Assembly: GCF_032884065.1 (NCBI RefSeq)
Contig: NC_088866.1
Span: forward strand, 26,082,335 to 26,146,334
Length of the DNA stretch: 64,000 nt
Reading direction: 5' to 3'
DNA from: Artemia franciscana
Taxonomy: Eukaryota > Arthropoda > Branchiopoda > Anostraca > Artemiidae
This document shows, piece after piece, positions 830 through 64,000 of this stretch. The translations under genes and the position numbers were made by a program. The notes under the pieces were generated by a model. It was not told the origin of the DNA. It ran no database searches and saw only the letters and a list, made by a program, of their open reading frames with translations. Position 1 is the stretch's first letter. Every line of letters starts with the position of its first letter.

Positions 830-3780
830 TCAAAATTTTAGTACATTGTTATATAGCGTCCGAAAACTTGTGGATAGCTCGACAATGGAGGATAATAAAT
901 TCCATTGAAGTATAGATTTATAAATTAGGGATCGCTGGGCGGAACAAGAGATACACTTTGGGACAATGAAGGAACGGTTGGATGAACGGAGACAGTGGCC
1001 TTCAGAATTATTACTATTAAAATAAGATAATAAGTGGGGAGGAAGATTTTTATGGTAAGCGGAGTATGCAGGGGATAGATTTAATTTTTTGATGATTTGT
1101 TCAAAAGGAATAATACCAAAATTGGAGTAGAAGTCCTTGGTGGGATATAGTCGTGGTAACCAAAAAACTGCTTTGACGGCACGGTTTTGAGCAGATTTTA
1201 ATTTATTGGTAACTGAAGGATAAGTATTGCCCCAAACAGATCCGCAGTATGAGATATATGGGTAAATAAAAGAATAATGAAGGGTGACAAGGATATCGGG
1301 AGGAAGAAAATAATTCACACGATTAATCGTACTTGCCTGTCACAAAATTATGGCTCTGATATAGGACACATGTGTTGCAAATGATAGGCAGGAGTCTATT
1401 TGGACACCAAGAAACTTGGCAAATTCGACCTGCGGGAGGAGATTGGTAGAACATTTTAGGCCAAGTGCCGGCTGAGCTTCATTTTTTTTGTAAGGGGTTC
1501 GAAATAATACAACCTGACTTTTCTTGCTGTTAATGGTCATGCTGTTAACGAGACACCACTCCTGTACTCTATTCAGAAGGGTTTGAGTAGAGGTGACGAC
1601 GGATGGTAAATTAGGACCGGTGATGAAAAAGTTGCTATCGTTGGAAAAAGTACTGGGTGCACTGATGGACCCAGGTCCGTAACCAAATCATTAATATAAA
1701 GGAGAAAAAGTATTGGACCAAGAACAGAGCCCTGTGGGACGCCCCTCCGGAGAGGTAGGGGATCTGAAGTCACTCCGCCCAGACTCACACTCTGTACTCT
1801 ACCAGAGAGATAAGAGCCGAACCATGAGAAAGGAACTCCACGAATCCCTAGGTTATTGAGTTCACTTAATAAAACACTGTGATCAACCATGTCAAAGGCC
1901 TTTGAAAAATCCAGAAATAAGCCCAATACAGGATTTTTAAGGTCAAGTTGGGAACGTATAAACTGTGTAGCGTCTATTAGTGCATACACAAATCTGATTA
2001 ATGATTCCCAAATACGAAGGGAGAAAGACGTCGGAATATAATTCTCTCGAGCACTTTAGATATAACTGGGAGAAGTGAGATTGGACGATAATTGCTTATC
2101 TCACACGGATCGCCTTTTTTATGAATCAGGATAACAATTGCTGATTTAAATATTTCTGGCAAGACTCCATTGGTCATAGACAGGTTTGCTATGTGCACAA
2201 TGGGCTCACAAACATAGGAAGATACGGTCCTAAGAAGCTTATTACTTATGCCTAAGAAGTCAGGTGTACTACTATTAGAGAGAGATTTGATAACTTGAAG
2301 CCCCTCTTTGCGATCAGTTGGAGAGAAAAACATGGATCTGAGATTCTTGCTTGGGTGCACTGACAGGATGAAGGAACAGGAGTTAGGATTTGGAATATTA
2401 GTGAAATAATAATTAAAAGCATCCGGTACTGAAATTGGGTCAATTAATCTGCCACTGATGTCCCTAAGGTTAATAGGTACAGATCTTGAATACCTTTTTT
2501 TGAAAGAATTTCATTTATTGTAGACCAAATTTATTGCAAGTTCCCTTTGCAGTGTGAGATTTTTGAATAATAATAATTTTTCTTTGCTTCCTGGATGAGG
2601 TTGGTATATACATTTTTGTATTTCTTATAATTAGTCAGGTCAATAACGCTACTGGTTTTTCAAGCCAACTTATATAGGTCATTTTTTCGGTCTGAAGAGA
2701 TTATCAGGCTATTGGACATCCAGGGGCGTATATGGGTAGTTTTTCGGTTTGATTTACGAACTGGAAAGGTTGAACTGATAGGATCACTCAATCCCTGTGT
2801 ATAACTATTTGTGGCTGAATTAACATCTGACAATCCAAAATCTTGGACCAGTCGAACTATTTCAAACAATCCGTGAACCGGTTCATATTCACACTATTAT
2901 ATATTCTATTAGACTTAGGGGTATTAGTTCTACGGGATTGAGTAGCTGATAAAGAGGGTAAGGATGGATAGATTGGAAAGTGATCTCACAGGTCAGAAAA
3001 TATTATTGTGGAGGCCAGGTGGTTTCCCAGGGAAGTGGATACAAAAATGTTGTCTAATAAAGTAGCGGTAGACCTCATAGGATCAACTCTAGTAGGAAAA
3101 AGGATTTTGGGAAGAAGACCACTTGAGGTAAATGTTTTAAAGAAAGGTATCACAATCATTATTATTGCTAACATTTAATAAATTACAATTGTAGTCCCCA
3201 AAAACTATTGCCTTCTTTTGTGGTAAATTAATAAAACTAGAAAAATCATCAAACAAATTACAAAAGAAAGGTGTCGAAAATGAGGGTGGTTTATAAAATA
3301 ACGAAAAATTAAAAGAATTCTCGTCTACACTTATGTCGACGATAAACACATCTATTATTTATAGGTTGCGAGAACAAGAATTCACAGTCTAATAGTCTGG
3401 TGAATTTTAGACTTGATCGGATGTAAAGAGAAATGCCGCCAAAAGACTTGGTTAATTTTCTTTCAATATGAATAGCTTGAAAGCCAGTGAGGGAAAATTC
3501 ATTAGTATCATCAATTTCTGAAAGCCACGTCTCCAGTATTCCAATTACGTCGAAAGGACATTAACCATTTGTTAAAATTAAATCTTTAAAATTAGCCCAC
3601 ATCCCGTATGCTTCTGATGTTAAAACAAATTACATTAAGTTTGGTCTCTTCCGTTAGCTTAGGTTTCACATTTTTCACAAAATCAAAAGTGTCGAGATAT
3701 TTACAGTTAATTTGGTTTAAAGGGCTATAGGGTGTTGGTGGGCAAATTGTTTTGGTCATCGTAATAGTTAAAAACAACAT
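830..3780 (-). pseudogene. LINE ORF2, endonuclease-reverse transcriptase (broken)
   Basis: Recognisable blocks in order on the minus strand: an endonuclease start (NVICFNIRSIRD, about 3600), the endonuclease core (VFGDYNCNLL, about 3200), the endonuclease end (LLDNIFVS, about 3050), then RT motifs NYRPISLLPVISKVLE (about 2060), FLDFSKAFDMVDHSVLL (about 1890) and RRGVPQGSVLGPILFLLYINDL (in parts, about 1720). The catalytic FADD box after INDL has been replaced and the frame shifts there, so the enzyme is dead. The C-terminal block (1318-830) contains YPYISYCGSVWGNTY, a usual post-RT motif in these LINEs. Pieces lie in at least four different frame segments. Confidence 0.85.
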
Positions 3781-3870: not shown

Positions 3871-4973
3871 TCAGCTGTTAACAATATCACGTAGAATAGG
3901 ACACCGTAGGCTATAAGAAACATGGGATCCATCGCAGTTAGCACATTTGGGCTGCATTTGACACGGCGAATCACGTGTTGCCTCATGAAGACCAGCACAT
4001 CGAGAGCATTTCGGGAAAGAACTTTCGCAAGCCACCTGTAGGTGGTTGGGTGAACGGCACTTGTTACAGCATCGTGGAAGATCATGAAAAATAAATACTC
4101 GAATTGATTCATACTCAATCCAAATACTCTCTTTTAAAGCATGGCCGAGTGACCTGGCATCGGTAAAACAGAGCTTTACGGAATTCGAGTTGCCAAGACG
4201 AGTAGTATCAGTGATCCCAGGGACCTTCTTAAACATAGCGAGTTCAAAATCCATTTCAATGCCTTTAACTAAACCATAGTACTTTTTGGATTTCATTTTC
4301 ACGATTGAGGAGGGTAGGACAGACTTGGCCGAGACACAGAACTGCGGGGCAGCGGTTTTATCAATGGACACAATCATCTTGTCACCAACAGGTTTAACCG
4401 ACAGAATCTATTCATGACCGCAAACTTGTTCCAGAGCTTGTCTGCGTTTCGTAGGATTGCTCAGATCAGGCGAAACCTTGGAGATAATCACTGTGGCATG
4501 ATTTTCATCGTTGCGAGACGAAAGGGATGGGAAATTGGTTTCGTAAGACACCATTTTAGAAGACATAGTTTTTAACATCTGTTCACAGCTATTTACTTTC
4601 GCAGCTAATCTAGAATATGCTACCGCTGGTATACAAGGGGACTTCAGTAGGTACACGAATGATGTAGCAAGGAATATCCAAATCGTCATTATCACACTTA
4701 CGTAGCAGACCGAGAATATTCTTAACATTATTTGACGCTGCCTTAGTACCAATACGCTTTGGTGGCTGGATATCATTGTTAACTGTGTTCCAAAATTCCA
4801 TCTTAGCAGAAGAAATGACTGATCCGTCAAAAAAAAAATCAACAGCACACTTAAATATCACTTCCATCATCTATTCCAGATTCGTAATTAGACTGTATGA
4901 AATTTAGCACAGGCGAGTAAACCAGTTTCCTATCACCCACCGATCACATGCTATCGCTGTCTGCATCAGACAT
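3871..4973 (-). pseudogene. LINE ORF1, gag-like zinc-knuckle protein (broken)
   Basis: The reading starts at an ATG at 4973-4971 (MSDADSDS...) and soon meets a stop, then runs through pieces in more than one frame. The best-kept part (4377-3871) ends with three zinc knuckles: CNKCRSPNHLQVAC fits CX2CX4HX4C, and CSRC...H...C and CANCDGSH...C follow within about 50 residues. This triple CCHC cluster is typical of ORF1 proteins of Jockey- and I-type LINEs, which bind the element RNA. Upstream of the knuckles lies a region with the spacing of an RRM-like fold, which I only infer. Confidence 0.75.
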
Positions 4974-5249
4974 AATTCACATAATTCAATAAAAATGCCT
5001 AACTCCAATTCTCGATATTCTAAGTTTAACTATAGTCCAAAAATAAGGTTAAATGACTTATCGTTTCGAGGGGTGAAAATCCAAGAAAATTGATCGTAGA
5101 TTTTCTGAGAAAATCCAAAGTAAACTACGATTTAAAAAGGTATATATAGTTTGAGAGGTTCACAAAATAGGCTGGAAAGTCCTTTCGCCAGAAGAGGATA
5201 TCCAATTTCGTCTATAAACCCATTTTATCACAATCAAATCAGGTAATGA

Positions 5250-6256
5250 TTCGAAATTACAGGACTAGCGTTTGCAAAATTCAAAGGATATCCAAAATGG
5301 CCGGTTCGAATCGTGGATACTGTTCAAAAGAAAAACGGATCACACTACGCAGTTTTTTGTTACGGCACGCATGAGGTATTAACGGTTCAAGAATCTCAGC
5401 TCGAACCATACCAAGAAAACTTTGATGAAGCTGTGAAGAAAAAAACCAAAGGAGAAGCAAATGCATTCAGCGAAGTTATCACTTTTCCGGATATTTACTT
5501 AGAAAAGTTAAACTTGGTCGGGCTTCTGTTGCCTCCGTTGTAGACAATGCTAAAAAAGAACTTGAAAATCTGCGAAGCGGTTTGAGAAATGAAATTGAAC
5601 AAAGGGTTCGTGACAACTTGAGCACGGTACCTTCTACAGGGCTAGCATCATCAGTTACAGAAGACATCGTCTGTAAAATCCATGATTCAATTTTGGTTGA
5701 ATACTCGGCAAAGTTCAGTGCTTTTGAAAAAATGTTATCTGGGCTCAAAAAACAAATTACATCTCTGGAAGACAGAATCGAAGTGATTGAACTAAAACTT
5801 GATGATATGGAACAGAAAACGATAATGGATACGCTTATTTTTAGTGGTTTAAAGCTGGCACAAGGAACCAGTGTTGAGATGTCAGTGAAAGAAGTTACTG
5901 GGGAAAAAATGGGACTACCGGATATTGAAAATTCGCACATCCTGAGCGTTCGTTGGTTCCAGAATCCATCCAATCCAGTCTCCAACAATTCTAACATGTC
6001 TCCTGTTTGTGATGGGTTTCGTAATCTGGATGCTGCAAAAACGGTGTTCATGGCAAAGTCGAAACTAGCATAAACTGGTACATTTGTGTCGGAGTACTTA
6101 ACGAGAAAGCGCAAACACTTGCTTGATTTGGCTCGAAACAAACTTGGTTCAAAGAACGCATAGTCAATCGATGGAATGATTTTTGTCAAACAGGGTCCGA
6201 ATATCAGGAAAGTACAAAGTACAAAGGATCTTATCGGTGAAGGATCATCAGCTTAA
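5250..6256 (+). pseudogene. LINE ORF1: N-terminal PWWP domain, coiled coil, RRM-like and C-terminal domains
   Basis: Frame 1 (about 5250-5483) encodes a PWWP domain. Frame 2 (about 5484-6256) carries straight on with KVKLGRASVASVV, a coiled coil (about residues 100-180 of the combined layout; SLEDRIEVIELKLDDMEQK), an RRM-like part (TLIFSGLKLA...), and a C-terminal block (VSEYLTRKRKHLLDLARNK, then SIDGMIFVKQG) typical of LINE ORF1 proteins. One frameshift near 5480 separates the PWWP domain from the rest; two in-frame stops lie at 6071-6073 and 6161-6163. A stop at 5247 sits just before the PWWP and no clean ATG is left. Known ORF1 proteins bind RNA as trimers or multimers; a PWWP domain would add chromatin binding. 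That the PWWP belongs to ORF1, not to a nearby host-gene fragment, is inferred from direct abutment in the same strand and order. Confidence 0.7.
5262..5483 (+). other. PWWP domain of the HDGF/LEDGF type
   Basis: The translation contains FAKFKGYPKWPVRI, which matches the first strand and the PWWP signature of HDGF/LEDGF (FAKMKGYPHWPARI), then VFCYGTHEV against VFFFGTHET, an LEPYQEN segment in place of LFPYEE, and AFSEVI in place of GFSEGLW. The tryptophan of PKWP and the tyrosine of FCYGTHE fall at aromatic-cage positions that read methylated H3K36 in this family. The match covers the whole domain of about 70 residues. Family identity is from memory of the human sequences. Confidence 0.8.
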
Positions 6257-6449
6257 TTACTGCTTTTCTCATGTCAGTTTGGGCAGTGCCATGTTCTCAC
6301 TCTTTGTTTCTTTCAACCATTTTCCGCTTTTGTTACCCTACTTTTTTGTTTCTTTTTCTCATTTATGCTCTTCACTTTTTTTTGTCTCTGCTTATACTCT
6401 TTATCAATTTCTGTTTGCACTTAGGTCATGTCAGGGTCCCGTGATCGTT

Positions 6450-8540
6450 TAAATATTTTTTAAACATCGAGATTTATCAGAAAATAGTTTGAAAAATCTG
6501 GCTGTAAATTTGGAACATGTTGATTTTTCGAAAGTTTTCAAATAGAAATGTGCAGAAAATGCTTATAATTTGTTTATGGATATATTTTTAGCTAAGTTTG
6601 ATAGATGTTGCCCCTTAAAGAAACTTAAAAAGAAAAAAAATAACCTTCGGAAAGCATGGATGACGACTGGAATCCTTGTTTCTGTAACAATGAAGAATAG
6701 ACTGTATAAAGATTATTTAAAAGACTCCACGAATGGGAAACTCCTGACTTTCATAGAGTATAGAAATCGGCTGAATAAAAATAAACGATAGGCTGAAAGA
6801 GCTTATTACGAAATATAGTTTGAACAGATCAATGGAAACATGAAGCGGACTTGGATTAAAATCAATGAGTCACTGGAGCATAAAAAGGAAAAGGACCAGA
6901 TTAAAATGATGAATTTCAGTGAAAAATTGTTAATGATCCAAAAGAAATTGCGGAAAATTTATGCAAGTATTTTTCAGAGGAAGGTTCTAAGCTGTGCCAT
7001 GAAGCAGTTAAAAGATCAAAAAGTCCACCAGCCCCCGAAGTTAAACGTCGTCATGTTACTTCTGAATTCCTTTTTACAAATTGTGATGAAAATGAAATAA
7101 ATGAAATAATTACGAGTATGAAATCACAGTCCTGTGGAGCAGATGAAGTATCGTTAAAAGTTATTAAAGCAACAAAAACAATTGTTACTCCTATTTTGAC
7201 TCATCTGATTAATTTATCACTTGAAGAGGGAACTTTTCCAGAAAGACTTAAATTAGCCCGAGTGCTACCCCTTCACAAAGGGAAGTCAAAAAATGAACCG
7301 ATTAATTACCGACCCATTTCTATTTTACCTTTTTTTTCGAAGATTTATGAGAAAGTAGTCCATAAGAGAATGTATGATTACCTCCAGGAGCAGAATCTTC
7401 TATGTGATACGCAATTTTGCTTTCGCAAAGGACTTTCTACGGACCTTGCAATTCTTAAATTGGTTGACTGGGTGAATGATGTATTTGATAAAGGCCTAAT
7501 ACCCGCAGCTTTACTTTTAAACATTAAAAAGGGATTTGACACTGTTGATCATGATAAATTACTCCAAATTGTTGAATCATTTGGTGTACGTAATGTGGCT
7601 TTAAAATGGTTTCGTTTGTATCTTATTAATAGAGCTCAAGTTGTACAAATGCAAATGCAACATCAGAGTGCCATCTTTTACCGTGTAGAGTGCAACAAGG
7701 TTCAATAATGGGACCACTGATTTTTCTGATTTATATTGACTATTTAAAATATTATTTATCTGAAGCTAATATTATAATATTTGCAGATGACACACTTCTT
7801 TTGTTGCATGTGAAAAATCTACCTTCTTTATTTAAAAAAATGGAAATTGCTCTGACTGAATTTATATCGTGGGCTGATTCACAGTATTTGACACTAAATT
7901 ATGGTAAAACAAATTATATTCTATTTTCTAGAATCGGGTCAGTCCAAACAGACCTCAATTTAATTGTAAAAAACAATATTATAAATAGAGTAAAAACCTG
8001 TAGATATCTTGGATTTATTATTTATGAGAATATGTCGTGGAATGAACATGCTAAATTGATTGGTAACAAATTTTCAAGGTCCCTTGGAGTTATCCGCCGT
8101 CTTAAATTCCGTTTCCCTAAAAAAAAAAATCCTGAAAATGATCTAAGCAACTTCATCTCATGTTATAAGAGAATCCAAATCATCCAAAATAAGGCCATTG
8201 AAATTATATCACCTCTTCAGCATTCAGATAACATTAACCTCCATTTCAAACTTACTAAAATATTTGATGTGTCATTTTCAGATTGTAACTTTTTGTTTTA
8301 AATATTTGAACAACCTCCTTCCATCGTCATTTGAAAATTTATTCACTTTAAATCAGGATTTACATACTTATGAAACGCAAAATTCATGTGACATTGTCCA
8401 CGAGACACCGTCAACAAAAAGAGCTTCTTTTTTAATTAAATTTTTTGCACCAGCTATCTGGAATTCAATCCCCTTGGAAATCCGGAACTCAAATAACCTT
8501 ATTACCTTCAAGCCAGCAGTGAAGGGTCGTTAGAGAAATA
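6450..8540 (+). pseudogene. LINE ORF2: reverse transcriptase and C-terminal region, endonuclease deleted
   Basis: The region opens with a pre-RT linker (KKNNLRKAWMTTGILVS at 6630-6680), then RT motifs: NYRPISILPFFSKIYEKVV (about 7305), a degraded motif A block (LLNIKKGFDTVDHDKLL, about 7520), QQGSIMGPLIFLIYIDYL (about 7695) and an intact FADD at 7780-7791. The C-terminal region ends near 8533 (FAPAIWNSIPLEIRN). A frameshift lies at about 7700 between motif A and the QQGS block, and another near 8200-8300. The AP endonuclease is missing: after the ORF1-ORF2 spacer the sequence jumps to the pre-RT linker, which implies an internal deletion of roughly 600-900 bases near 6445. Confidence 0.85.
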
Positions 8541-9012
8541 CTATTTAGATTTGAATATCGTGCGGTCCTCCTCTTTTCGGTCTTTTTCTTTTCATTTCTT
8601 TCTCTTCATCACCCCCTTTTTTTCTCTTTTTTTCGTTTTTTGATAAATCCAGTTGATTCGTTGTTTCTGTTAGTTGATTGTTTAATTATTCTTTAGTTAA
8701 GTTTCTGCCCTAGTCAAGCATTTTTGTGCTTTCCTGGCCGATTATGTACATGTAATTATGTGTTTTGTTTAAATATATATGATTGAATTGAATTGAATTG
8801 TCTTGCATAATATTCGTAGAACTCTATACATTAACACAAAGCTAGGGCCTTGGGCCCTGGTCCAAACCCACTCCCCTGGACATACTTTCCTATCACATAG
8901 CAGGATACTACTTATATCATAAGTAGCAATTCAATGCTCAGTTTTGAAACTTCAAAGAATGGAGTTCTGCTTGGAACCTGTTAATCAGCCAAACAACTAA
9001 AGAAAATGATTG

Positions 9013-9047: not shown

Positions 9048-9243
9048 TCAGTTTTCCTTAGCAGCAGCCACTCGGGGGAACCAAACTTCATTTCTTCTAT
9101 TAACAAAGTCGAAAGGTGAGTCATAACCAATCATATACCACGGAGCGTACTGTGCATCAGTAACACCATCTCTTTCCAGTGATTGATAAAGAGCATAGCC
9201 TTCCGATATATAGTCCGTTTCATACGCATATCCGGAGAATAGC
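9048..9243 (-). CDS. SOUL gene A exon 5 (last)
   Basis: 196 nt including TGA at 9050-9048, acceptor CTTTAG. It encodes FSGYAYETDY, GVTDAQYAPWYMIGY and FVNRRNEVWFP. The RRNEVW close is the hallmark end of SOUL/HBP proteins. It is one codon longer than the matching exon of gene B. Confidence 0.93.
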
Positions 9244-12200
9244 CTAAAGATATTCACAATAAAAAACACATTTTAGATGGTATAGAGACACAAGAAGAAA
9301 GCTAAAATTAACATAAAAGCATAAAATTAAAGTTTCAGAGATTTCCACATATCATATATGTAGTGGTTGTGATATTTTGCGTGACATCGAGCAAAATGAC
9401 AGAACATTTCCCTCGGTGACGGTTATGGTAACTGCAGAGGTCAAGAACAGGACCCAATTTTCTATCTCTGGCACCCTAGGAATACGAATAAAATAATCTA
9501 TATAACAAAATGGTAATTTTATGTAGGTAACAAAACATTGGTTAAAGATGGTTCTGGTACCCAATGCATTTGTTTCTTTAATGTAAATTAACCCCGTATC
9601 GAGCTGTTAACTTAAAATTAAGCTGGCAAAAGACCATTTTAGGCCATTTTTTGAATACTTCCCCTTCTCCTGAAATTGCACCTCCTCCAGACAAAATCTT
9701 GCTTATGTGGTTGCAGTTGGATTCATTAAAACGCAAAACATATACGCTAGGAAAACTTCAATCAGCAATTTAGATGGTAGAAAAAAACCTTCTCTGCTCC
9801 ACCGCTTCTATCCTCTTCCACAATATTAAAAAATCGAAAGTAATCAGATTCAAGTTTTTGTTGGTAATGTTTTCAAGGTTGTTATAGTCCAAAATAGAAG
9901 CAGAAAGGATTCCCAGTGATCACCCCATCCCTAAAGAACTAAATTTTAAAAGTTGGAGCCAAAGGGGTCCTTCTATTGCTCACTATATATTATTGCAGAT
10001 ATAGTGCTCATAAAATATAAGATTTTTTTCATTTCATCGAGGTGCCAGAATTACAAAACCCCTATTGAGGCTTAGATATTTTTGGCTCCCTAACTTAGCA
10101 AGCAGCTACCCCAATCAAAAGGCCCCCAAGAGTGTTGGCAACGATACGAAAGGCCTAGCTGTAAAAAAAAAAAAATCAAGGACGTGCTATTACTTACCGA
10201 ATAAGTAGCCTCAGTATGCGAAAAGATACCGCAGCCAAGAGCAATATTAATATACTAAGAAAAAGTTGCGTTCACCGTCATAAAAGTAGGATAGTATTTG
10301 AGGGTATAGCGTTATCTTTGGTACAGTGAAAAATAGAGAAAAAAGGTAAAAACAAAGTTAAAAAAGTTGAATAAACATAATAAACTTTAGGCCCACTTAG
10401 TTCTATTATGTTTTATGTTCTGAATATTTAAAAATGTTTGTTTTGTCCAGGAAGGCTTATAGGATGCGATTTGGGCTTGGTTCATTTTAATAATAGTTCT
10501 CACATATCACAAAACTAAAGCCAAAGAGGTATATCCCTTATTTTCACATCTTTACATGAGAACAGAAATCAATTTAAAAGGCCGACTACTTTAAAAACCA
10601 GGGGAGGTTTTACCAAGGACACTGGAAATCTGCAAAGAAAAACCTGTGAAGAAAATATGGCACAAAACAGCTCAAAAATTGACAGTTTTCTTTTGAGAGT
10701 GCAGTTGTCTTTGGGCAGTTGGATTTGGGTTTTGCTTATTTATTTTCACAGTTCAAAGTAGCAACGTTGACATTAATGTGGTACTGCCCTAAAAACTTCA
10801 TAATTTTGAAAAAAACGAGAGAAAAGTTAAAAAAATCGAGGTTTGTCTATATTAATAAACTTAATATGAGTCAAGTGAGTAAACCATGCTTTTATTGTTA
10901 TATCCTTCGTATTTCAAGCTCTTATGAAATTTTCTTCCCTTTTTATTTTTTAGCAGAAATTTTGATGACAAAACATTTAAATTTATCGTGTAGCTGAAGA
11001 ATTTAGTTTTATTTTGGAAAGTGTTCATTGAGGAGGTACTAAAATTCTTTTTCTTTCATTTCGGCCATCGTAAATAGGGCCACAAAATAAAGACCCCATA
11101 AGACACTCCTAGGAGGAGGCTAAAACCACTTTTGGATTAACTACTTTCCCTTTTGATTTAAAATATCCTAATTTAATATCTCTGGTATGGAATTTTGAAG
11201 CATAGACTGTTTTCTAATTGTAAAGTTATAAAAACTAAATATTGTCAAGAAACAACAAGGTCTATAAACAAAAAGTGTAAAGAAAAAAAATGTAAAAAAT
11301 AGAAGCTAAGGGTTAAAGAAAAAAAGGAGGAAGAACGAAAATAAAATATTAGCGAAACTGCCGAAAAATCGATGGTCGGAAATGGATCAACGAGAGGAAA
11401 AATTACGACCTTTGTCAATGCTGCAAAAACATGCACTTGAATAAAGGCATATTCTTTCACGATCGTCCAGTATTAACACAGAGTCTTAACTGATGATTTC
11501 TATAGCTCATTTCATTTTTCTGTATCTTATTCAGTATTGTTTATCGTGGTGTTATACATTGTCCTAAAATTACTAAGGTTCTCTAATTCTAAATTAGCAG
11601 AGAAGCAAAGGGGTAAATTGTCTAGAAAAAATACTATCATTACCAAAAGAAATGTTTGGTTTTTGTACAGTTATAAGTTCTTACACAAGATAACAAATCA
11701 ATTGGAATTTAACTTTTCGTTCGTACTACTGGATAAGAATTGACATAGGGAGCTTTAAAACCACTTTAATTTTTAAAAGACGGGATATTTCCCTGTCGTT
11801 ATGATTAGGAAAGCAAATTCTAGGAAATTGTAGGAGAGTAAAAATTACAGGAAATCAATATTTCTGTTTTCCTTTTTAATAATGGTCACCTACCTTGAAT
11901 ATAGTTCAAATTCTGGCCTATCTTCAATAAAAACAGCCGGATTTGTCGGAACAGGTGGATTCTCTTGAAATTCTTCAGGTACGTAAAATGCCATTGTAAA
12001 GGTTTGTTTACAGTTTGGTCCTTCCCCAGGTATAACAAGGGTTGTAACAGGGGCTGTCATTGGGACAGTGACACCTAAAAATTTAGTCAAATATAAATAA
12101 TCACTATATGAAGCAATCCCAATTTGAAGGCAAGAAAGAAAAGTATGCATGTAAATTTCTGGTACTTGAATGATATACCCCCTGCAGCTCAATTTGTTCA

Positions 12201-15200
12201 TGCATTGATTCACTGTAAATCGGTTTCTTTCGCTATTTTCTTTCAAATTAGCATGAGAAAAGACAAAGAGAAGTGACATAATAATTTGGACTATATATTT
12301 GCAAATTAGCGGGGGGGGGAGGTGAGGGTAGAGCATTCGGACAATGTGAAGTCAGAAAATGATTCTTACTTAATAATATCAGAATAAATGCAGCTAACAC
12401 ATTTTGCATGCAGACCCCCTTTACTCAGCCCCCCTCCTAATGTGCAAATACATATCCCAAATTTGTTTCCAAAGTATTATATTTTTATCATTCTTAGGTA
12501 TATTTTATTAGGATTAATCTAACTTCACCTCTTGAGCTGCTGGGGGTATTTCATATAAGTACCAAATTTCTTTTTAGAATTTTAAAATTATTCACTGAAT
12601 AATCAAGTTTCAAGCTTACATCAGTTGAAGGCAAAGATGAAAAATTATATTCTAAAGTTAGAAAGCAATAAATTCTCTATTTATTGCTTTATTACATTTT
12701 CGCATTTTGAAGTCATTTTTTAATATCCTCTTAAGATTCATTTCAGAGTCTCTTTAAATTTTAGTGACTTTTAAAGGTCATCTATTAGAATTTAGAGGTA
12801 AAAATTGGCTTTTCAAAGATAGCAGTGAGCGAAAATAAAATGGATTTTAATTTTCTAAAAAGAGACTTAAAAATCAAGAAAGATAAAAAAAAATTAAACC
12901 TCAAATTTTAATGAAAAAACCCCCAGTTATGCCGTTAAGCTATTTTTTGTAGTAGTGGGCGCCACATCAAAAGAAAACGTGGATCAACAAAAAACAGGCG
13001 AAAAACATATTAAGCCAAAAAGCTCCAGAAGTTATTGCTTTATTTTGAATTTGCAATTGTCTTCGTTAATCAACAGATGTGTTTATGTTTAACATTTACA
13101 GACGAAGAGCGTTGTGAAATTTGCCTAATTCAGTTATGCTCATTTGACCCCATGGGTAAACTTTTCTCCCTACAAAGTTTGCCTCTTTGTAGAGGTAAAC
13201 TTCGTTTTCAAAAGAAAACGTGGATCAGCAGAAAACAGGCGAAAAACATATTACGCCAAAAAGCTCCAGAAGTTGTTGCTTTATTTTGAATTTGCAATTG
13301 TCTTCGTTAATCAATAGATGTGTTTATGTTTAACATTTACAGACGAAGAGCGTTGTGAAATCTGCCTAATTCAGTTATACTCATTTGACCCCATGGCTCA
13401 ATTTTTCTACCTACAAAGTTTGCCTCTTTCCTAAAAACGTTCTAATTTGAAATAACTAATAGAATAATATTAGAAAATCGAGCTTTTCAAGTATGAATAG
13501 AAACTTTTGTATTTGCTCGGATTAGCTAATTTCGGGTAATTTGGCTACTGGTTTTGGATAAGAGGAAGACGTTGTCTGGTAATAAAAATTCTGAAGTAAA
13601 AATTCTTCAGATCAGTGCATTTCTAAATGCATTTTTTTAGTGCCAAGCCAATAAAATAAACACCCTTCCCCCTGGATTCATCTTGGGTCTGTCCATTCAT
13701 ACCTTAAAAGCTCGATCTCCTACAATTTTCCATTTGTTTTTCTGGAAACTACGAGATTTTAGGGAAATATACTACATTTTTGTCAACGTTGCCGCGTTGT
13801 ACTGCTAACTTAAATAGCAAAGCTTATCAACCACAATTGACTACTCTTTTCATCTGTAAATGTCTAAGCATAATTAACACCCAACAATAAAAATTTGTTT
13901 TTTCTCTTATGATTAGCTTTGAACTGTCCAAAGTGATGATGTTCAGAAGTTAATGTCTAGTAAAATTTGAACATTTTTGCTACTATAAATGACACAAACT
14001 GATCACAAGATTAGCAAACACTAAAAAGAGCGGAACAAGAATATATAAATAATGCTTGAAAGTACACTAATAGCCTATACCATAAACAACTATTTTCTGT
14101 GACCCAAAAATGTAAATTTTATAAGACTAAAAATGAAAGCATGGGTAATTGTTATGAAAAAAATTGCTGCTTAAAAAGTTGAAAATCCAGTGTACCCCCT
14201 CCCCTACAAACACAAAAACCACGAAACCCTTCAATTTCGGTTTTGTGAAAGCTCAGCTTTATCTAGAGAGTGTGATTTTTTTTTTTTAATGCACAAGTTT
14301 GGAAACGAAAGCCCCGTATTGAGTTACTTTTCCACATTTGACTATAAATGAGCTTTCAAAAAGGAAAAATTAACAGAAAATAGCCTTAATTTTCTGTGAA
14401 GTAAAATTTATCCTAGATCCATAAACGTTTGTTTCCCAATATCAACTCCAAAAATATAAATTATGAATTTAAGTCTCTTTTTTGTCAGAATAATCTGCTA
14501 TATTTGTGAATCCAGGTCACATTTTACTTTTTAGAAAATTTAGGCTATTTTTCTTAAGTATTTCCTGTTATTTTTTTCTTTTTTGAAAGTTCACTCAAAG
14601 TTCATTCAATATTGACAAAATGAAGTCTGAAAAATAATATAACCTTTTTTCAGAAAGGGCTTTCGATCAGTAAATTCAAAATTTGCTAGAAAATTAGCTT
14701 CAGTTAGAGCTGAACTCATGAGCTATTTGGTAGCTAGCCAAATTCTCCTGTCCATGGGTTAAGACGGACAAAAAGGAATGCTCTTTCACAGCAATTTGAT
14801 GTTTATACTGTTTCAATTTATTGATTTAAAAAAAAATCAAAAAGAGAAGAAGCATTAACACTAACCTCCTTCATTGCCACCATCAATATAATTGAAAAGT
14901 GTATTGAACAGCGTGCCTCTAACTTCTTCATAGCCAAAAGAATCCACAGATGTGGCAACCCATTTCTTCTGTGGGTAGCGTCTTATTTCGTAATCCTAAA
15001 AGGGGAATAGCATTAAAATTAGGCTATAGTGGTGTTACGTCGGCCCAGTACGTCCATCTCATAGATGACAACCTGTCATCAGCTGGACAATATATCCGGG
15101 ATGTTTTTCTGTTTTACTAGATTTATGTGTAAGAGTATCAATGATATACTTATTTTAGTATTACTTAGTGTTCAACTGCCAACTTTATTATGATTTTTTT

Positions 15201-31243: not shown

Positions 31244-32789
31244 GAGCTAAGAGCTCATGTGGCACTTGTGACGAGGCGAGAAGAGCTAAGAGCCAAGAGA
31301 TCACATGGTATGAGCTCTAACAAAATTCTATGAATCAATAGATTGATTTAAAAAGGAAAATAAGAGGCTTAATGCCGGTCAGGATTTAAAATAAGAGCTC
31401 TGAGTCACGATGTCCTTCTAAATATCAAAATTCATTAAGATCCGATCACCCACTAGTAAGTTATAAATACCTAATTTTTTCTAATTTTTCCTCTCCCTTT
31501 AGCCCCCCCCCCCCCGATGGTCGAATCTGGGAAAACGACTTTATCAAGTCAAATTGTGCAGCTCCCTGACACGCCTATCAATTTTTTATCGTCCTAGCAC
31601 GTCCAGAAGCACCAAACTCGCCAAATCACTGAACCCCTCCGCCCAACTCCCCCAAAGAGAGCGAATCCAGTACGATTCTGTCAATCACGTATCAAGGACA
31701 TTTGTTTATTCTATCCATCAAGCTTTATCCCGATTCCTACACTCCAAGTGTTTTTCCAAGATTTCCCCCTCCAACTCCCTCTAATGTCAAACGATCTGGT
31801 CGGGATTTGAAATAAGAGCTCTGAGACATGAATTCTTTCTAAAAATCAAATTTTATTAAAATCCGAACATCTATTCATAGATAAAAACACCCCAATTTTC
31901 ACGTTTTCCAAGAATTCCATTTTCCCCCTCCAACTCCCCCCAACGTCACAGGATCTGGTCGGAATCTAAAAAAGAACTTTAAAGCACAAGATCCTTCTAA
32001 ATATCAAATTTCATCAAGATCTGGTCACCCTTTCGTAAGTTACAAATACCTCAATTTTCAAAATTATCCCCTGTCCAATTCCACCAAAGAGAGCAGATCC
32101 GGTCCGGTTATGTCAGTCAAGTATCTTAGACAGCTTTTTATTCTTCCCATCCGGTTTCATCCTGATCTCACCACTTTAAGTATTTTCTAAGATTTCCGGT
32201 CCCCCCCAACTGCCCCCCCCCCAATTGCGCTTGATCCGGTCGAGATTTCAAATAAGCGATCTGAGTTACGAGGTCCTTCTAAATATAAAGTTTGATGAAG
32301 ATCCGATCACTCCTTCGTAAGTTAAAAATACGTCATTTTTTCTTATTTTTCAGAATGAAGCCCCCCCCCCCCAATAGATTGGATCCGTTCCAATTATTTA
32401 AGTCACGTATGTAAGACTTGAACTTATTTTTCCCACCAAGTTTCATCCCGATCCCTCCAATCTAAGCGTTTTCCATGATTTTGGGTTCCCCCAACCCAAA
32501 CTTCCCCCAACGTCACCAGATCCAGTCAGGATTTAAAATACGAGCTTTGAGACACGATATCTTTCTAAATATCAAATTTCGTTGAGATCCGATAACCCGT
32601 TCGTAAGTTAAAAATACCTCATTTTTTCTAATTTTTCAGAATTAACCCCTCCTCCAACTACCCCAAAGAGAGCGGATCCGTTCCGATTATGTCAATCATG
32701 TGTCTAGGACTCGTGGTTATTTTTTCCACTAAGTTTCATCCCGATCCCTCCATTCTAAGTGTTTTTCAAGTTTTAGGTTTTTTCAAGTT

Positions 32790-32935
32790 TTAGGCCCATC
32801 GCCTAAAGTTCTTTAAAGTTGTGCTTTAAAGTTCTAATTTTAAATTCCGACCAGATCCTGTGACATTGGGGGGAGTTGTAGGAGGAAACCAGAAATTTCG
32901 GAAGACGTGAAATTTGGGGTATTATAGGCAGGGGG
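32790..32935 (-). repeat. Inverted piece of the 290-bp repeat
   Basis: On the minus strand this matches the sequence at about 31890-31995 (ACGTCTTCC-type start, CTCCCCCCAATGTCAC, GATC-GGTCGGAAT). It marks a rearrangement inside the array, next to the 1.2-kb non-array stretch at 32940-34105. Confidence 0.6.
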
Positions 32936-32999
32936 TGGGGGTAAGGTTAGGTTTTTAACCCATTTCTGATATATATTCTCCCCCCCCCCTATTTTGCAA

Positions 33000-33160
33000 A
33001 TATATAGCCCAAATTATACTATTGTATAAACTAAAGTATTATATTTACATCATGTTTTAGTGTATTTCATTATGATTAACGTAACTACACTTCTTGAGTG
33101 TATTAGGTATAATACATAAGTACCAGTATTTTTCTTTCAAAAGGCCACAGACTAATAGAA
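33000..33160. repeat. Repeat family E, partial copy inside the array
   Basis: Matches 12441-12570 in order and sense (GCAAATA-ATA--CCCAAAT, AAAGTATTATATTT, CTTGAG, ACATAAGTACCA). Only one arm of the palindrome is present. Confidence 0.55.
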
Positions 33161-33320
33161 TCAATTTTCGTTATTTTTTAAGTTAATCACCCCCCCCCCC
33201 CTAAAAAACGAACCAAGAGCCTGTGTATGTACCTGCAGTCCTTCGAGTCTGCAAGGCTATCGAAATATTCAACACCCGACTTTAGAATAATATCAAAAAT
33301 GATTACCTTGCCCTTTTGAA

Positions 33321-33536
33321 TTATCGATACCGTTCTTTATAGGTAGGAATTTTTTCATACATTTCAGTTACAATTTTATCCTTATCTTTTGACATAGATT
33401 CTTTGAATGGCCTGCTCATCAAATTCATTGAAAACGTTTTAAATACGTATTTAAATTGCGCATTTGAAAAGGCGGCCTTTGAAACAGGTGAGCAATAACT
33501 TGGGTCCGCGTTGTCTGTGCCCAAAGGACATGGGAA
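33321..33536 (-). pseudogene. Unrecognised coding-like fragment, possible last exon of a captured host gene
   Basis: An open frame of about 71 codons on the minus strand ends in TAA (33323-33321) and is preceded by an acceptor-like TTTTAATTAG. It reads FPCPLGTDNADPSYCSPVSK, then FKYVFKTFSMNLM and ends EKIPTYKERYR. Composition is balanced and unlike the surrounding C-rich repeat. Directly upstream (about 33690-33537) another frame reads ADVTVPVIYAVSTVKGKYFY and TLTVINDDFTFLNLAIDF, also protein-like. I do not recognise the family. It sits within the tandem-repeat element between two family E copies, so a gene piece carried by a mobile element is one explanation; a nested host exon is another. 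Confidence 0.4.
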
Positions 33537-33765
33537 CTAATTAAAAGTCAATAGCTAAGTTCAAGAATGTAAAATCATCATTGATGACTGTCAAAGTGTA
33601 AAAATATTTTCCCTTTACTGTGCTGACTGCATAGATGACTGGAACAGTTACATCCGCGGGACTTTGCTTCTTAGGGAATTCCAATATCGTCAGCAATAGT
33701 TACAGCTTAGGGGTATAAGCCTAGAGAAGGAAACATGTTAAGAAAACATTTCATAATACGCAGAA

Positions 33766-34063
33766 TAGCTGTAGCTAACACCTTTTGCATGGATCCCCCC
33801 TATACTTTACCGCCAACCCACCTTCCCCTAAAAAGCAAATATATAGTCCAAATTATATAAAACCAATGCATTCTGTCACCCATCACTTGTTTTCCGGTTC
33901 TTCTTTTAAACAGTTAATTCAATTAATAAGTACAAGGTATGAAACAAGAGAGACGCATTGGGAGAATAGAGGGGAAATATATAATTTCGACTGTATATTT
34001 ACACATTAAGGGGGGGGGTAAAATATAGGGAGTTCCATGCAAAATCTGTTTGCTACAATTGTT
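33766..34063. repeat. Repeat family E, complete palindromic copy
   Basis: The left arm (33766-33852) and right arm (33983-34063) are imperfect inverted repeats of about 80 bases (CTTTTGCATGGATCCCCCC against a reverse GGGAGTTCCATGCAAAA). A centre of about 130 bases lies between. The size and layout suit a MITE or foldback element. Confidence 0.6.
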
Positions 34064-35762
34064 ATGCATGTTGTATTCTTATCATGCTTCCTTCTCAAAC
34101 ATGTTTCCTTCTTAACTCGTAAGTTAAAAATACTTCATTTTTCTAATCTTTCAGAATTAACCCTCGCCCCCACTCCCCCAAAGAGAGCGGATCCATCCCG
34201 GTTATGTCAATCACGTATCTAGGACTTGTGCTTATTTTTCCCACCAAGTTTCATCCCGATCCCTCCACTCTAAGCGTTTTCAAAATTTTAGGTCCCCCCT
34301 CAATTCCCCTCCCCCCAATATCACCGGATCTAGTCAGGATTAAAAATAAGAGCTCTGAGACACGATATACTTCCAAACTTCAAATTTCATTAAGATCCGA
34401 TCACTCCTTCGTAAGTTAAAAATACCTCATTTTTCTAATTTGTGCAGAATTAACCCTCGCCAACTCCCCCAAAGAGAACGGTTCCGTTGCGGTTATGTCA
34501 ATCACGTATCTAGGACTTGTGCTTATTTTTCTCACCAAGTTTCATCCCGATCCCTCCACTCTAAGCGTTTTCCAAGATTTTAGCCCCCCCCTCAATTCCC
34601 CCCAATGTCACCAGATCCAGTCGGGATTCAAAATAAGAGCTCTGAGACACGATATCCTTCCAAATTTCGTTGAGATTCGATCACTCCTTCGTAAGTTACA
34701 AATTCCTCATTTTTTTCTATTTTTTCAGATTTAACCCCCCCCCCCAATTCCCCAAAACAGAGAAGATCTGTTATGGTTATGTCAATTATGTATCTAGGAC
34801 TTGTGATTATTTTCCCCACAAAGTTTCATCCCGATCCCTTCACTCTAAGTGTTTTCCAAGTTTTAGGTTTCCCCTCCCAACTCCCCGCCCCTGTCACCAG
34901 ATCCGGTCGGGATTTAAAATAAGAGCTCTAAGACACGATATCCTTCTAAACATCAAATTTCATTGAGATCCGATCACCCGTTCGTAAGTTGAAAATACCT
35001 CATTTTTCCTAATTTTTAAGAATTACTCCCCCCCCACTACCCCAAAGAGAGCGAATCAGTTCCGATTATGTCAATCATGTATCTGGGACTTGCGCTTATT
35101 TTTCCCCTCAAGTTTCATCCCGATCCCTCCACTCTAAGTGTTTTCCAAGATTTTAGGTTTCCCCCCTCCAACTTCCCCCAATGTCATCAAAATAGGTCGG
35201 TTTTTAAAATAAGAGCTCTGAGACACAATATCATTCCAAACATCAAATTTCATTAAGATCCAATCACCCGCTCATAAGTTAAAAATACTTCATTTTTTCT
35301 ATTTTTTCCGAATTAACCGACCCCCCACTCTCCCCCAGATGGTCAAATTGGCAAAACGACTATTTCTAATTTAATCTGGTCTGGTCCCTGATATGCTTGC
35401 CAAATTTCATCGTCCTAGCTTACCTGGAAGTGCCTAAAGTAGCAAAACCGAGACTTTAGGTTTTCCCCCTCCAACTCCCCCCAATGTCATCAGATCCGGT
35501 CGGGTTTTAAAATAAGAGCTCTGAGACACAATATCATTCCAAACATTAAATTTCATTAAGATCCAATTACCCGCTCATAAGTTAAAAATACTTCATTTTT
35601 TCTATTTTTTTGCGAATTAACCGGCCCCCCCCCACTCCCCCCAGATGGTCAAATCGGGAAAACGACTATTTCTAATTTAATCTTGTCCGGTCCCTGATAC
35701 GCTTGCCCAATTTTCATCGTCCTAGCTTACCTGGAAGTGCCTAAAGTAGCAAAACCGGGACC

Positions 35763-35800
35763 GACAGACAGACAGACCGACAGACAGACAGACAGACAGA
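35763..35800. repeat. GACA microsatellite
   Basis: About nine GACA/GACC units just before the terminal hairpin of the tandem-repeat element. A similar, shorter tract lies at the equivalent place in the copy at the right edge of the window. Confidence 0.95.
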
Positions 35801-35819
35801 ATTGGGGATTGCTATATGT

Positions 35820-35839
35820 CACTTGGTTAATACCAAGTG
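35820..35839. repeat. Terminal hairpin of the 290-bp-repeat element
   Basis: CACTTGGT and ACCAAGTG form a perfect 8-bp stem with a TAAT loop. The same hairpin, as an 18-base palindrome, ends the copy at 63645-63662. Confidence 0.85.
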
Positions 35840-35843
35840 CCAT

Positions 35844-37918
35844 AAAAACCGATTGACTTGGCGCCAAGGTGGTTTATCAGTATTAGTTAAAGAAGGTATC
35901 TCTTTTTGACGCATTGAAATTCTGGAAGTTCTCATGAGGAAATGCTTTTTGAAGTAATGGTGACTGAAATTAGTCTTGGAAAAAAAAATGTTTTTTTGCG
36001 TAATATACCGACCGCATTCTTCTCCAGTCAAGTCTTTCCTCTCTAAACTCCATGATTTTTGCATCAACCCCATTTTCAAAGTAAAGATGTTATCCTCTCC
36101 GGAGATTTCAATATTGACCTTCTAGAAGCTGCAAATGAATCTTCTGTTGAGTTATTGTCTTCTTGCTTTTCTGCGTATCTGCTTCTTACTTGCCTGATAC
36201 CTACGAGAATTTCACCTAGTTCTGCTTTTCTCAGTGATAATATTTTTACATCTTTATCTATTCAAGCAAATTTTGCTGTTTTAAGTGATATATCGGATCA
36301 TTTCCTGCTGGTTTCAGATTTAGCTTTTAATTATAAAATACCACAAGTAAGTAAGGAACATCAAGGATGGTTAATAAATAAAATAACATTAAAGCACCTG
36401 AATGAAAGCCTTGGACTATTGGATTGGCAGGAGGTAATATCCACTGAGCATACAGATATGGCAACTGATAATTTTCTAAGAAATTTCAATTGCTGCCTTG
36501 ATTCTAGTTGTCCATTTGTTACGATTAAAATTTGCAGAGAAAAATTTCCTATAAGGCCATGGATAACGTCTGGAATTTTGATATCAGTTAAGAAAAAAAA
36601 ATCATTTGTTTAAAAAGCAGTTAAAGAATTCAACTGATTATAATATTAAAAATTTTAGAATTTTCAAAAATAAATTAACCACACTGATACGTTTGTCAAA
36701 ACAATTGTATTATAAAAAGTCTTTTGAAGAAGCTCAAAATTCTCCTCGCAAAACGTGGTCTTTAATTAATTCTTTTATAAGAAAAGAAAGTAAGTCTAAT
36801 TTTCCTGAAAATATTAGCTTAGAAGATGGTTCGACTACTAATAAATCGGAGAAAGTGGCTGATATTTTGAATTCTTATTTTGCTAAAATAGGAGAGAAAA
36901 TTGTTTCATCAGTAATGAACCAGTTTGATTCACGTAGTAATAAACATTTTTCTTCATACCTTCCATCTCCTCAAAGTAATTCAAATTTTTCTAGGGCCTA
37001 TTTCTCAGTCTGAAATAACAAAAATAGTGTTTGATCTAAATCCAGGTAATTTAGCGGGAATTGATGGGTCTAGTTCTAAAATTTTAAAAAAAATATTGTC
37101 TGCAATAATATTACCATTACAGCATATAATCAATCTTTCATTTAAAACTTGAGTTTTCCCATCTGCTTTTAAAGAAGCGCGGATAGTTCCGCTTCACAAA
37201 GGTGATTCTCCTGAAAATCCATCAAATTCCCGTCCTATTTCTATTTTGTCAGCATTTTCTAAAATGCTTGAGAAGGCAATTTATAAGAGGTTTTATGACT
37301 TTCTAAAATCGTCTAATTTCTTCACAAATTCCCAGTTTGGTTTCCGGTCTGGACACAACACTGAACATGCTATCGGTGCTTTCATCCAATATATTCATGA
37401 ATGCTTGGATAGAGGTGAAATTCCAGCAACAATATATTTAGATTTTAAAAAAGCTTCAGACTAATATTAATAATTGTTCTCTAGTATACTTATCTACATT
37501 TAAAAGCCATATTAAACCAATACAGATTTTACAAAATAAAGCCCTAAGAATCCTTTAACTTTTTATTCCATCACCTTTTGAACTTCCAAATAAGTCTTCT
37601 ACAGCATCTTTATATACTTATCTGGTTATACTTCCAGTTTCTCAACAATTTGCTTTTGGAGCGATTCTTTTCAAAATCAATTATGACATTAAGAAATTAC
37701 CGCCATATTACCTCCATCAAAGTTTGTTCTCCCAATCACAAGATTTACATAATTATAACACTCGACAAAAAAAAAGAGTATCTACATTGACAAGTATAAT
37801 ACAGAGAGATGCTCACAAGAGATGCTGGGATGCTCACAAGGCTTTTATTGATAAATTTGTCTCTATACATTTAATAAAAAGGAAACTTAAATTTCATTTA
37901 GTTCAGGATTATTTTTAA
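35844..37918 (+). pseudogene. LINE ORF2, endonuclease end, RT N-terminal half, C-terminal part
   Basis: After the insertion come LSVLVKEG (about 35875), the endonuclease motif ILSGDFNIDLLE (about 36090), DNIFTSLS and SDISDHFLLVSD, and a pre-RT linker with RPWITSGILIS. The RT starts with LAGIDGSSSKILKK, RPISILSAFSKMLEKAIYKR (about 37240) and QFGFRSGHNTEHA. After IYLDFKKASD the sequence jumps straight to INNCSLVYLSTF and PIQILQNKALRIL of the C-terminal region, so RT motifs after A, including the catalytic YADD/FADD box, have been deleted. Frameshifts occur near 36605 and 37000. Confidence 0.85.
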
Positions 37919-38239
37919 TTAAGTATCCTTTTAGTAAGGCAAAGTTATTTATATGGTTCGTTGCTCTGGGTGATTATGGGCCTTCAGCTATCTTCCAGTA
38001 TTAATTTATATTTGATAATATTGAAATTTTTAATTTCTTCAATACTATTGAAAGATCCTGGGCTAGCTGCTACTTTCATATTATTGTTGCGTTATTGTAT
38101 CTTTGCCGTCATGTTTATCTTTGTATTGTAGTGTATGTTGTTATTGTATCTTTGTCTAGGCCTAGTTTTTCGAGCTTGTCTCCCCATGGGCCTATGTCGT
38201 ATATATACATGTATATGTGATTAATAAATAAATGATTTT

Positions 38240-40590
38240 GAAAAAAAACAAAAACATGCATTAAGAAGAGAACGACACACCAAGCATTGATTCAATAATA
38301 AAAAAAGATTACACGTATTTAAAAATAAGCCCAATTATTCAACTAATAGGGGAGCTAGCTCCTTTTCGAAGCAAAAGGACATAGTTGAATCCCCTAATGG
38401 CACATCCTAAAAAGCTGATAGGTTAGGAATATACACAAAAATAAGTAATTTTTGTCAAAATCTTTTCTTACTTAAACATTTAAAGGGATAAATTGGCGAG
38501 CTTTAAGCTACAAAGAAAAAATTAAAAAGTCTCCTCATAACTCTTTTCCTAAAAACCTATTTGTTTTTTTATTGACACTCGCCTGTTTGACACTCATCCC
38601 CCCTGTAGCTCTATTGGAAATATATTTCAATTGCCAGTATTTACTGATGATAATAGCCATTTACAAAATAAAAAAGAAGATGAAACAACTCACCAAGAGT
38701 GCCAAAAAGATTTTCATTCTGATGGGTTTGATCTGTACACAGTTTCAAATCTAAAGTTTATCTTTCAGGTCCTATGTATTTATACTGGGAGTTATATAAT
38801 TAACAAAAAAATTAAGACAAACAATTTTTTTTGGCTACGGAAAACATTTCAACTATCTCTGATAACGTGAGCATCACTGTGACAGGCAAATAATTGCCAA
38901 TTATGTTCCATCGTAGTTTGAATTCGAGGGGTTTCGCACTTTAAAAAATCGTATAAACCATGTGAATCGTCCCGCGAAAGGCGCAAAATGTTATTCATGG
39001 CGGAACTAGTCAAACTCGGTATTATTTGATGCAAATGTTGGCTGGGCTTCTTTGCGGCTGCAAACCCCGACCGATGGAAGCCTCGACTGACTGAGGTCTT
39101 GGTATATTAGAGTCTTGGTATATACCTAATACCAAGTGTCTTGGTATATTATGAAGCTTGGGCAGTCTGAAAGAGGTAACAATTATATCATACCGAGTAG
39201 AAACCAGACATCAATGTCAAGTACAGTCATTACATCAATGTCAAATACATGACAATCTGATAATCATGCAATGTTTAAAAGTTCCCCACTGCCCTTACAG
39301 AGGAAGCTAACTAACGGTATAAGAAACCCGGTTAGCCACTGTCGAGTCTAGCTTGAAGTCGCTTGAAGATTTTCAGAAACCAACCCCCACTGGAATCGAT
39401 ACTGATTGTCAATCAAAGAGCCATCAACTGCGGACAGACCCTCCTGGAGTCAAACATGTTACCAGATCACGAATACCATAATAAGCCAAGGGCTTTGAAT
39501 CTGAAACAAGTGCAGGTACAAGTACAACCAAATATTACATCAGGTGGTATAGATTGGGGAGCTTTTCGTTGCCCTAGGAAACTAAATCAAGTGTTTTCCA
39601 ATGAGTGCACTTAGTAAAGAGATAGGTGCATTCCATGTACTGTTTTTTCTTCCATGATAATGTTATGTAATTAAGTAGTTAGATAAATGTTAAAATATTT
39701 TCTTATTCAGAAGATCTCGTTACATTTCTTAGAATTTAATCTTTATTTAATACCTTTTGTATCCTGATTTCTTGTAATTTATTTTGATAAGAGGAAAGTG
39801 TTCATGCTGATTGGCTCTCCTGTCTAAAATTCTGATCCAATGAAAAGAATGGAAAGTTTTTGGCAGCGAAATTTTTTACAAGCATCTCCACATCTCTGTT
39901 TCTCTGTGGTTTGGACAAATTTCGAGTAATTGATCCCAAACCGCAAGCAGTAAACCCAACTGAAAAACAATTAATTCTTGGAATTAACTGACTGACGAGT
40001 ACTAAGTTGACGATCAATAAAGTTAATATACAAAGTTGACTTTAGTATTAAACTTATGTTATCATTTACAATAGACTTGCAAAATACCATAAGTTGTAGG
40101 AATCCCTTCTTAGATACCAAAGGGATTTTGTTCGAGTCTGTAAATCCGTGGTAGTTGGTGTACCTATCAGTGTGCACACATTTTACAAAGGCCCTAATTT
40201 AGCTTTACGACATATTTTCGTGCAGAATGTCCTTAGTATTGAGGTTACAATATTTTTCCGTGGAGAGTTCATTGCACAGACAATAGTAAACACAAAGCTA
40301 CGTAATTATGCAAAGGAAATCACCAGTTTCAAAAGAGGAGGCCACTGCATACTCAATTATCATATTAATTATTATTTTTGAGGCATAGATCTTATAATTT
40401 CAGAAATTTGAATAACTTTTAGCACAATTTCAAACAAAAGGTCTTTACGACATTTTTTTTTAATTAAACAAAATTCGTTAAACAGAATTTTAAGAGATTT
40501 GAAATTACCCGGAGGAAATTTTCAGAAAGTCAAATTCATTGTTTAAAAACTAATAAAATAGGGAACTTACGAAAGAAACTAGTAAAATTC
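38240..40590. other. No gene or repeat identified
   Basis: AT-rich, with short open frames only. CTTGGTATAT occurs three times at 39098-39150 near TAATACCAAGTG, faintly like the terminal hairpin of the 290-bp-repeat element, too weak to call. Confidence 0.5.
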
Positions 40591-63635: not shown

Positions 63636-63640
63636 TTTTA

Positions 63641-64000
63641 TGGAACTTGGTAATTACCAAGTGACATATAGCGATCACAAATTCTGTCATTCTGTCGGTC
63701 GGTCTGTCTGTCCTGGTTTTGCTAGTTTAGACCTTTCCAGATAAGCTAGGACGATGAAATTCGGCAAGCGCATCAGGAACAAGACCATATTAAATTAAAA
63801 AAAGTTTGCCCGATTCGACGATCGGGGGGAAGGGGTAGTAGGGAGCCAATTAATTCGGAAAAATTAGAAAAAAAGGAAGTATTTTAATCTTACGAACGGG
63901 TGATCGGATTCTAATCTAATTTGTTATTTAGAAGGATATCGTGTCTCATAGCTAATTTTTATATCCCGGCTGGATCCGGAGAAATCGGAGGAGTTGGGGA
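63641..64000 (-). mobile_element. Second copy of the 290-bp-repeat (HINE-like) element, cut by the window end
   Basis: Read on the minus strand from the right edge it follows 35460-35843: ACACGATATCCTTCTAAAT, ATCGTCCTAGCTTA, TAGCAAAACC, a GACA tract, GCTATATGTCACTTGGTAA and a perfect 18-base palindrome (63645-63662), then CCATAAAAAC. It therefore has the same terminal hairpin and lies in opposite orientation to the copy at 31.2-35.8 kb. Confidence 0.75.

Follow-up and report, generated by a model that had tools for sequence, protein, structure and literature searches.

In chromodomain LTR retrotransposons the chromatin reader sits within the integrase portion, which sets them apart from a LINE with a reader in ORF1. 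They are, like the element considered here, retroelements that contain a host-type chromatin reader (PMC6338049). For LINEs themselves, a survey of 448 Jockey-superfamily elements reports PHD fingers in many CR1 and L2 subgroups, places an N-terminal PHD before the coiled coil, RRM and C-terminal domain (CTD) in L2 subgroup 6 and CR1 subgroup 5, and suggests that the ORF1 PHD helps to target the host genome, with no functional study as of 2014 (PMC4120745). The word PWWP has no occurrence in the main text of this survey (Metcalfe and Casane, 2014; PMC4120745). Likewise, the matches listed in open-access full text include no LINE with a PWWP or an HDGF domain, a scope distinct from Repbase and subscription journals, and within that scope the suggestion of a preliminary description of this DNA that a PWWP in a LINE ORF1 may be undescribed agrees with the literature.

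Here we describe a locus in a 64,000-nucleotide stretch of Artemia franciscana DNA (the window, meaning the whole stretch analysed) which is probably a fossil LINE whose ancestral ORF1 protein had a PWWP domain of HDGF type at its N-terminus and passed directly into a coiled coil, as judged from one copy. This element shares with CR1/L2 ORF1 type IIC (PHD-coiled coil-RRM-CTD) an N-terminal domain of the histone-reader class, a coil, a C-terminal part and a reverse transcriptase (RT) frame, but it has a PWWP instead of the PHD, and an RRM or CTD was not detected in it (type IIC as described in PMC4120745). Its features are as follows.

5250..5495 (+): PWWP domain of HDGF/LEDGF type (Pfam, PDB, frame and stops, periodicity)
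5480..5530 (+): switch from the PWWP frame to the coil frame (overlapping open frames; the best periodicity frame changes)
5519..5842 (+): coiled-coil part of ORF1 (heptad score, AlphaFold helices, periodicity)
5843..6256 (+): ORF1-like remainder, where an RRM and a C-terminal domain are expected (interrupted by stops at 6071 and 6161; terminated at 6254)
6257..6460 (+): spacer, the endonuclease being expected between here and the RT (no Pfam match, no periodicity)
6467..6922 (+): disrupted linker leading up to the RT (6546-6788 has similarity to the window's two other LINEs)
6923..8533 (+): reverse transcriptase of LINE type plus C-terminal part, frameshifted (RVT_1; PDB LINE-1 ORF2)
8534..8800 (+): 3′ untranslated part, with repeated TTGAA units at its end (by eye)

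The preliminary description, made from the DNA letters and a list of open reading frames, had recognized a whole HDGF/LEDGF-like PWWP at the start of this region and proposed a comparison with those protein families, and both the domain and its affinity were confirmed. The positions given in that description also proved correct. The frame at 5250-5543 (+) is open over 97 codons, and residues 6-74 of frame 5250-5540, corresponding to nucleotides 5265-5471 (+), match Pfam PF00855 (PWWP) with 40.9 bits against a curated cut-off of 25.6 (E 3.1e-10). When this frame was compared with sequences in the PDB, the best solved relative was HDGF (E 2e-10), and 17 of the 18 distinct sequences at E<=0.01 were named HDGF, HDGF-related 2/3 or LEDGF/PSIP1, so that its nearest relatives belong to the HDGF family; the remaining sequence, LD23804p, is presumably fly JASPer. 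A chance PWWP-like stretch was considered and is ruled out by these Pfam and PDB matches. The AlphaFold models obtained from the single sequence were weak, with a pLDDT of 65.6 for the best and 34-45 for the remaining four, and when a model was submitted to Foldseek, ranks 1-10 were all HDGF-family PWWP structures at E 0.046-0.09 and TM-scores of at most 0.41, with no structure at E 0.001; the identification of this domain therefore rests on sequence.

Coding signal was assessed by a three-position base-use model trained solely on this element's own RT frames (6923-7632 and 7709-8298), taking the best of three frames for each segment and comparing it with 2000 shuffles. With segment limits that were set after the frames had been seen, a score as high as the observed one was reached by 3/2000 shuffles for the PWWP (5250-5495), 0/2000 for the coil plus ORF1 part (5519-6070, which includes the coiled coil at 5519-5842) and 27/2000 for 5843-6070, and periodicity was not significant for the end of ORF1 (6074-6253; 525/2000) or for the sequence upstream of the PWWP (351/2000 for 5000-5245 and 837/2000 for 4880-5245) and was absent from the spacer (6257-6460; 1786/2000). 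The PWWP score was reached by 6 of 489 stretches of equal length elsewhere in the window. When scored in successive windows, the PWWP frame was best between 5240 and 5540 and the coil frame was best from 5480 to 6320, with some scores near zero, so that the lead passes from one to the other between window 5420-5540 and window 5480-5600. Windows upstream of the PWWP favour the third frame (scores up to 2.5), which is closed by many stops. The PWWP and coil coding stretches abut within tens of bases.

The arrangement of frames bears on how this protein was once translated. A TGA at 5247 lies directly upstream of the PWWP frame, and there is no in-frame ATG in or before that frame, the ATG at 5246 being in another frame. 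The coil/ORF1 frame is open from 5429 to 6073 (+), overlapping the end of the PWWP frame, and the same frame runs on to 6256 through the stops at 6071 and 6161. It opens at 5429 and is free of ATG codons as far as 5732, a position inside the coil, and this suggests that translation of ORF1 probably came in from upstream, through the PWWP frame. Alternatively, the coil frame may have had a start of its own that was lost through mutation.

It had been proposed that the PWWP runs, on the same strand and after one frameshift near 5480, into a coiled coil and a LINE ORF1 C-terminal region. The strand and the frameshift are borne out by the overlapping open frames and by one switch within 5480-5530. 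The coiled coil is upheld by a home-made heptad score, which for the best 35 residues in ORF1 exceeded 300/300 shuffles (z 4.9) and did not stand out in the control regions (142/300 shuffles were as high for the RT and 226/300 for the PWWP), and by two long helices spanning residues 4-35 and residues 46-108 in the read-through product (5528-5623 and 5654-5842) in an AlphaFold model made without an alignment; the element therefore has the coiled coil by which a type II ORF1 is recognized. The proposal of a C-terminal region held in part. An ORF1-like frame does follow the coil, but it had no match among Pfam models, Transposase_22 being one of those covered, or among solved ORF1 structures in the PDB, and in the AlphaFold model of the ORF1 read-through product pLDDT is <50 after residue 98, so that 5843-6256 is assigned as an RRM plus C-terminal domain by position and by eye only.

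The RT that places this element among the LINEs begins ~670 nt downstream of the ORF1 part, on the same strand as the PWWP. Pfam RVT_1 matches 6923-7705 at E 3e-14 and 7633-8298 at E 9e-10, and structures of human LINE-1 ORF2 in the PDB match it at E 1.2e-6. By eye only, the element is CR1/L2-like, of the Jockey superfamily. The ~200 bases that separate ORF1 from the RT-side linker contain no recognizable endonuclease, and no Pfam match to one was obtained in two of the three frames there (6180-6449 and 6241-6441). Pfam also misses the endonuclease-like fragments seen by eye in the neighbouring LINEs (none for 36056-36610 and 3140-3358, and only E 0.14 for 3309-3560), so the absence of an endonuclease is argued mainly by the spacing. 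An ungapped comparison of 4300-5600 with 8775-8860 for a target-site duplication gave nothing of score >=8 (best scores in 30 shuffles were 7-11) in this old copy; that route therefore does not prove where the insertion ends on its 5′ side, nor hence that the PWWP belongs to the element. The copy is dead; its ORF1 contains stop codons and changes frame once, and its RT is frameshifted.

Two other LINEs lie in the window, and their relation to this element is visible in the RT (relatives at 37.0-37.5 kb on the + strand and 1.3-2.3 kb on the − strand) and in the linker (tblastn of 6546-6788 in the window matches 2818-2612 at E 5e-4 and 36455-36586 at E 0.005). The second LINE runs from ~4870 down to 640 (−), in head-to-head orientation to the PWWP element, and its ORF1 does not match; it has an ORF1-like frame with CCHC knuckles at 3871-4407 (CCHC by eye), endonuclease-like pieces at 3137-3560 (by eye; Pfam E 0.14 at best), an RVT_1 match at E 1.8e-4 for 1684-1791, and a TTGAA-like tail. 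The third LINE, at 36056-38240 (+), is apparently 5′-truncated (by eye), has an RT 40% identical to that of the PWWP element, and has an endonuclease-like end seen by eye, without Pfam support. The window also contains a pair of oppositely oriented SOUL heme-binding-like genes, at 9048-12348 (−) and 51567-52692 (+) (Pfam SOUL E 4.5e-11 for 9048-9269; tblastn identities between the two of 70% and 53%). Its repeats include a C-rich array at 31300-35900, with many units spaced ~290 nt and inverted relatives at 63600-64000 at the right end of the window, a minisatellite with a 16-nt unit at 53014-53436, and two 222-nt direct copies at 12967-13429 that are 95% identical and start 241 nt apart.

Further copies of the PWWP or the ORF1 pieces were not found by tblastn in the 64,000-nt window, and relatives sought in viral and genome contigs of viral, bacterial and archaeal collections gave no confirmed match; given the nature of these collections, missing relatives there say little. 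A DNA pattern for the PWWP core had 0 matches in the viral contigs and 1 match in the genome contigs, which lies antisense in a helicase-like gene (by eye) and was taken as chance.

The best reading of these data, which is partly supported, is that the PWWP was fused to the N-terminus of ORF1. It follows from the abutting coding stretches, the coil frame without an ATG, the LINE RT on the same strand, and the lack of significant coding over 250-370 nt upstream, and the N-terminal PHD of some CR1 and L2 ORF1 proteins is a precedent for a reader in this position. Against it stand the single copy, the TGA before the PWWP and the missing in-frame ATG, the lack of a target-site duplication, the lack of an ORF1 family match, the non-significant periodicity at the end of ORF1, the Cys at cage position F44, and the failure to recognize an endonuclease. 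We infer that the fusion was already present in active ancestors of this copy.

Template switching by LINEs is a known process, and an RT that switched from the LINE RNA to an HDGF-like mRNA could have joined a PWWP to the 5′ end in this copy and in no other. Such a one-off chimera would account for the single copy seen in the window, for a PWWP without an intron, for the absence of an in-frame start and for a frame change near the junction. We consider it unlikely, since the junction would have had to fall at the end of the domain just before the coil, the ORF1 start would also have had to be removed (there is no ATG from 5429 to 5732), and the two coding stretches abut. It is more improbable still that the PWWP is an exon of a host HDGF-like gene that by chance precedes an unrelated LINE fragment. 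The ACAG at 5259-5262, just before the domain, can be read as a splice acceptor for such an exon, but by eye it has no upstream pyrimidine tract, the PWWP and coil coding leave little room for an intron, and tblastn finds no second stretch like this PWWP in the window. Least probable of all is a domesticated gene in which the host used an ORF1-derived coil with a PWWP and which is now a pseudogene beside LINE remains, as the stop-free PWWP frame of 97 codons would allow, because stops and a frame switch interrupt the ORF1 part, after which linker, RT and 3′ tail come in normal order.

If the PWWP was indeed part of ORF1, its likely activity can be considered from its relatives. The PWWP domains of PSIP1 and fly JASPer are reported to bind nucleosomes carrying H3K36me3 by means of an aromatic cage together with a basic surface that binds DNA, and the PSIP1 substitution F44A abolished binding, perhaps through misfolding (PMC3663649, PMC6877644). 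The element shares with HDGF, HRP2, LEDGF/PSIP1 and fly JASPer the N-terminal PWWP type, the GTHE motif and the cage residues Y18 and W21; it differs from the HDGF-related proteins in that the PWWP is followed directly by a coil, position F44 is a Cys, and the domain sits in a retroelement. In what we take to be the PSIP1 residue register, alignment to HDGF gives Phe/Tyr/Trp/Cys at the cage positions M15/Y18/W21/F44, with conservation of the flanking residues H48 and E49. Therefore, this broken copy lacks the full PSIP1-type cage (M15, Y18, W21, F44) that would mark a reader of H3K36 methylation, and because F44A eliminates binding by PSIP1, its PWWP may not read this mark. As the copy is broken in any case, the change of F44 to Cys says little about its active parents.

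For those parents, it can be proposed, tentatively and with more doubt than confidence, that a LINE lineage captured an HDGF-type PWWP as the N-terminus of its ORF1 protein and used it to deliver its ribonucleoprotein (RNP) to H3K36-methylated, transcribed chromatin. In this proposal, the ORF1 protein would multimerize through the coil and coat the element RNA, which its C-terminal part would presumably bind, and a PWWP placed before the coil would cause several copies of the domain to be displayed on each RNP. These PWWP domains could then dock on nucleosomes through the basic surface and, in relatives where it is intact, the methyl-lysine cage, and docking would bring the RNP, with its endonuclease and RT, to H3K36-methylated, transcribed chromatin. 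A plainer alternative to steering is docking on DNA by charge alone. LEDGF tethers HIV integrase, and steering by a PWWP within ORF1 would be parallel to this but built into the element.

If true, a PWWP in this position would be a further instance of ORF1 taking up a histone reader. The usual ligand of PWWP domains is well defined, so targeting of this kind is testable with cage mutants and insertion maps. The PWWP element bears on how insertion sites may be chosen by LINEs with a relaxed endonuclease.
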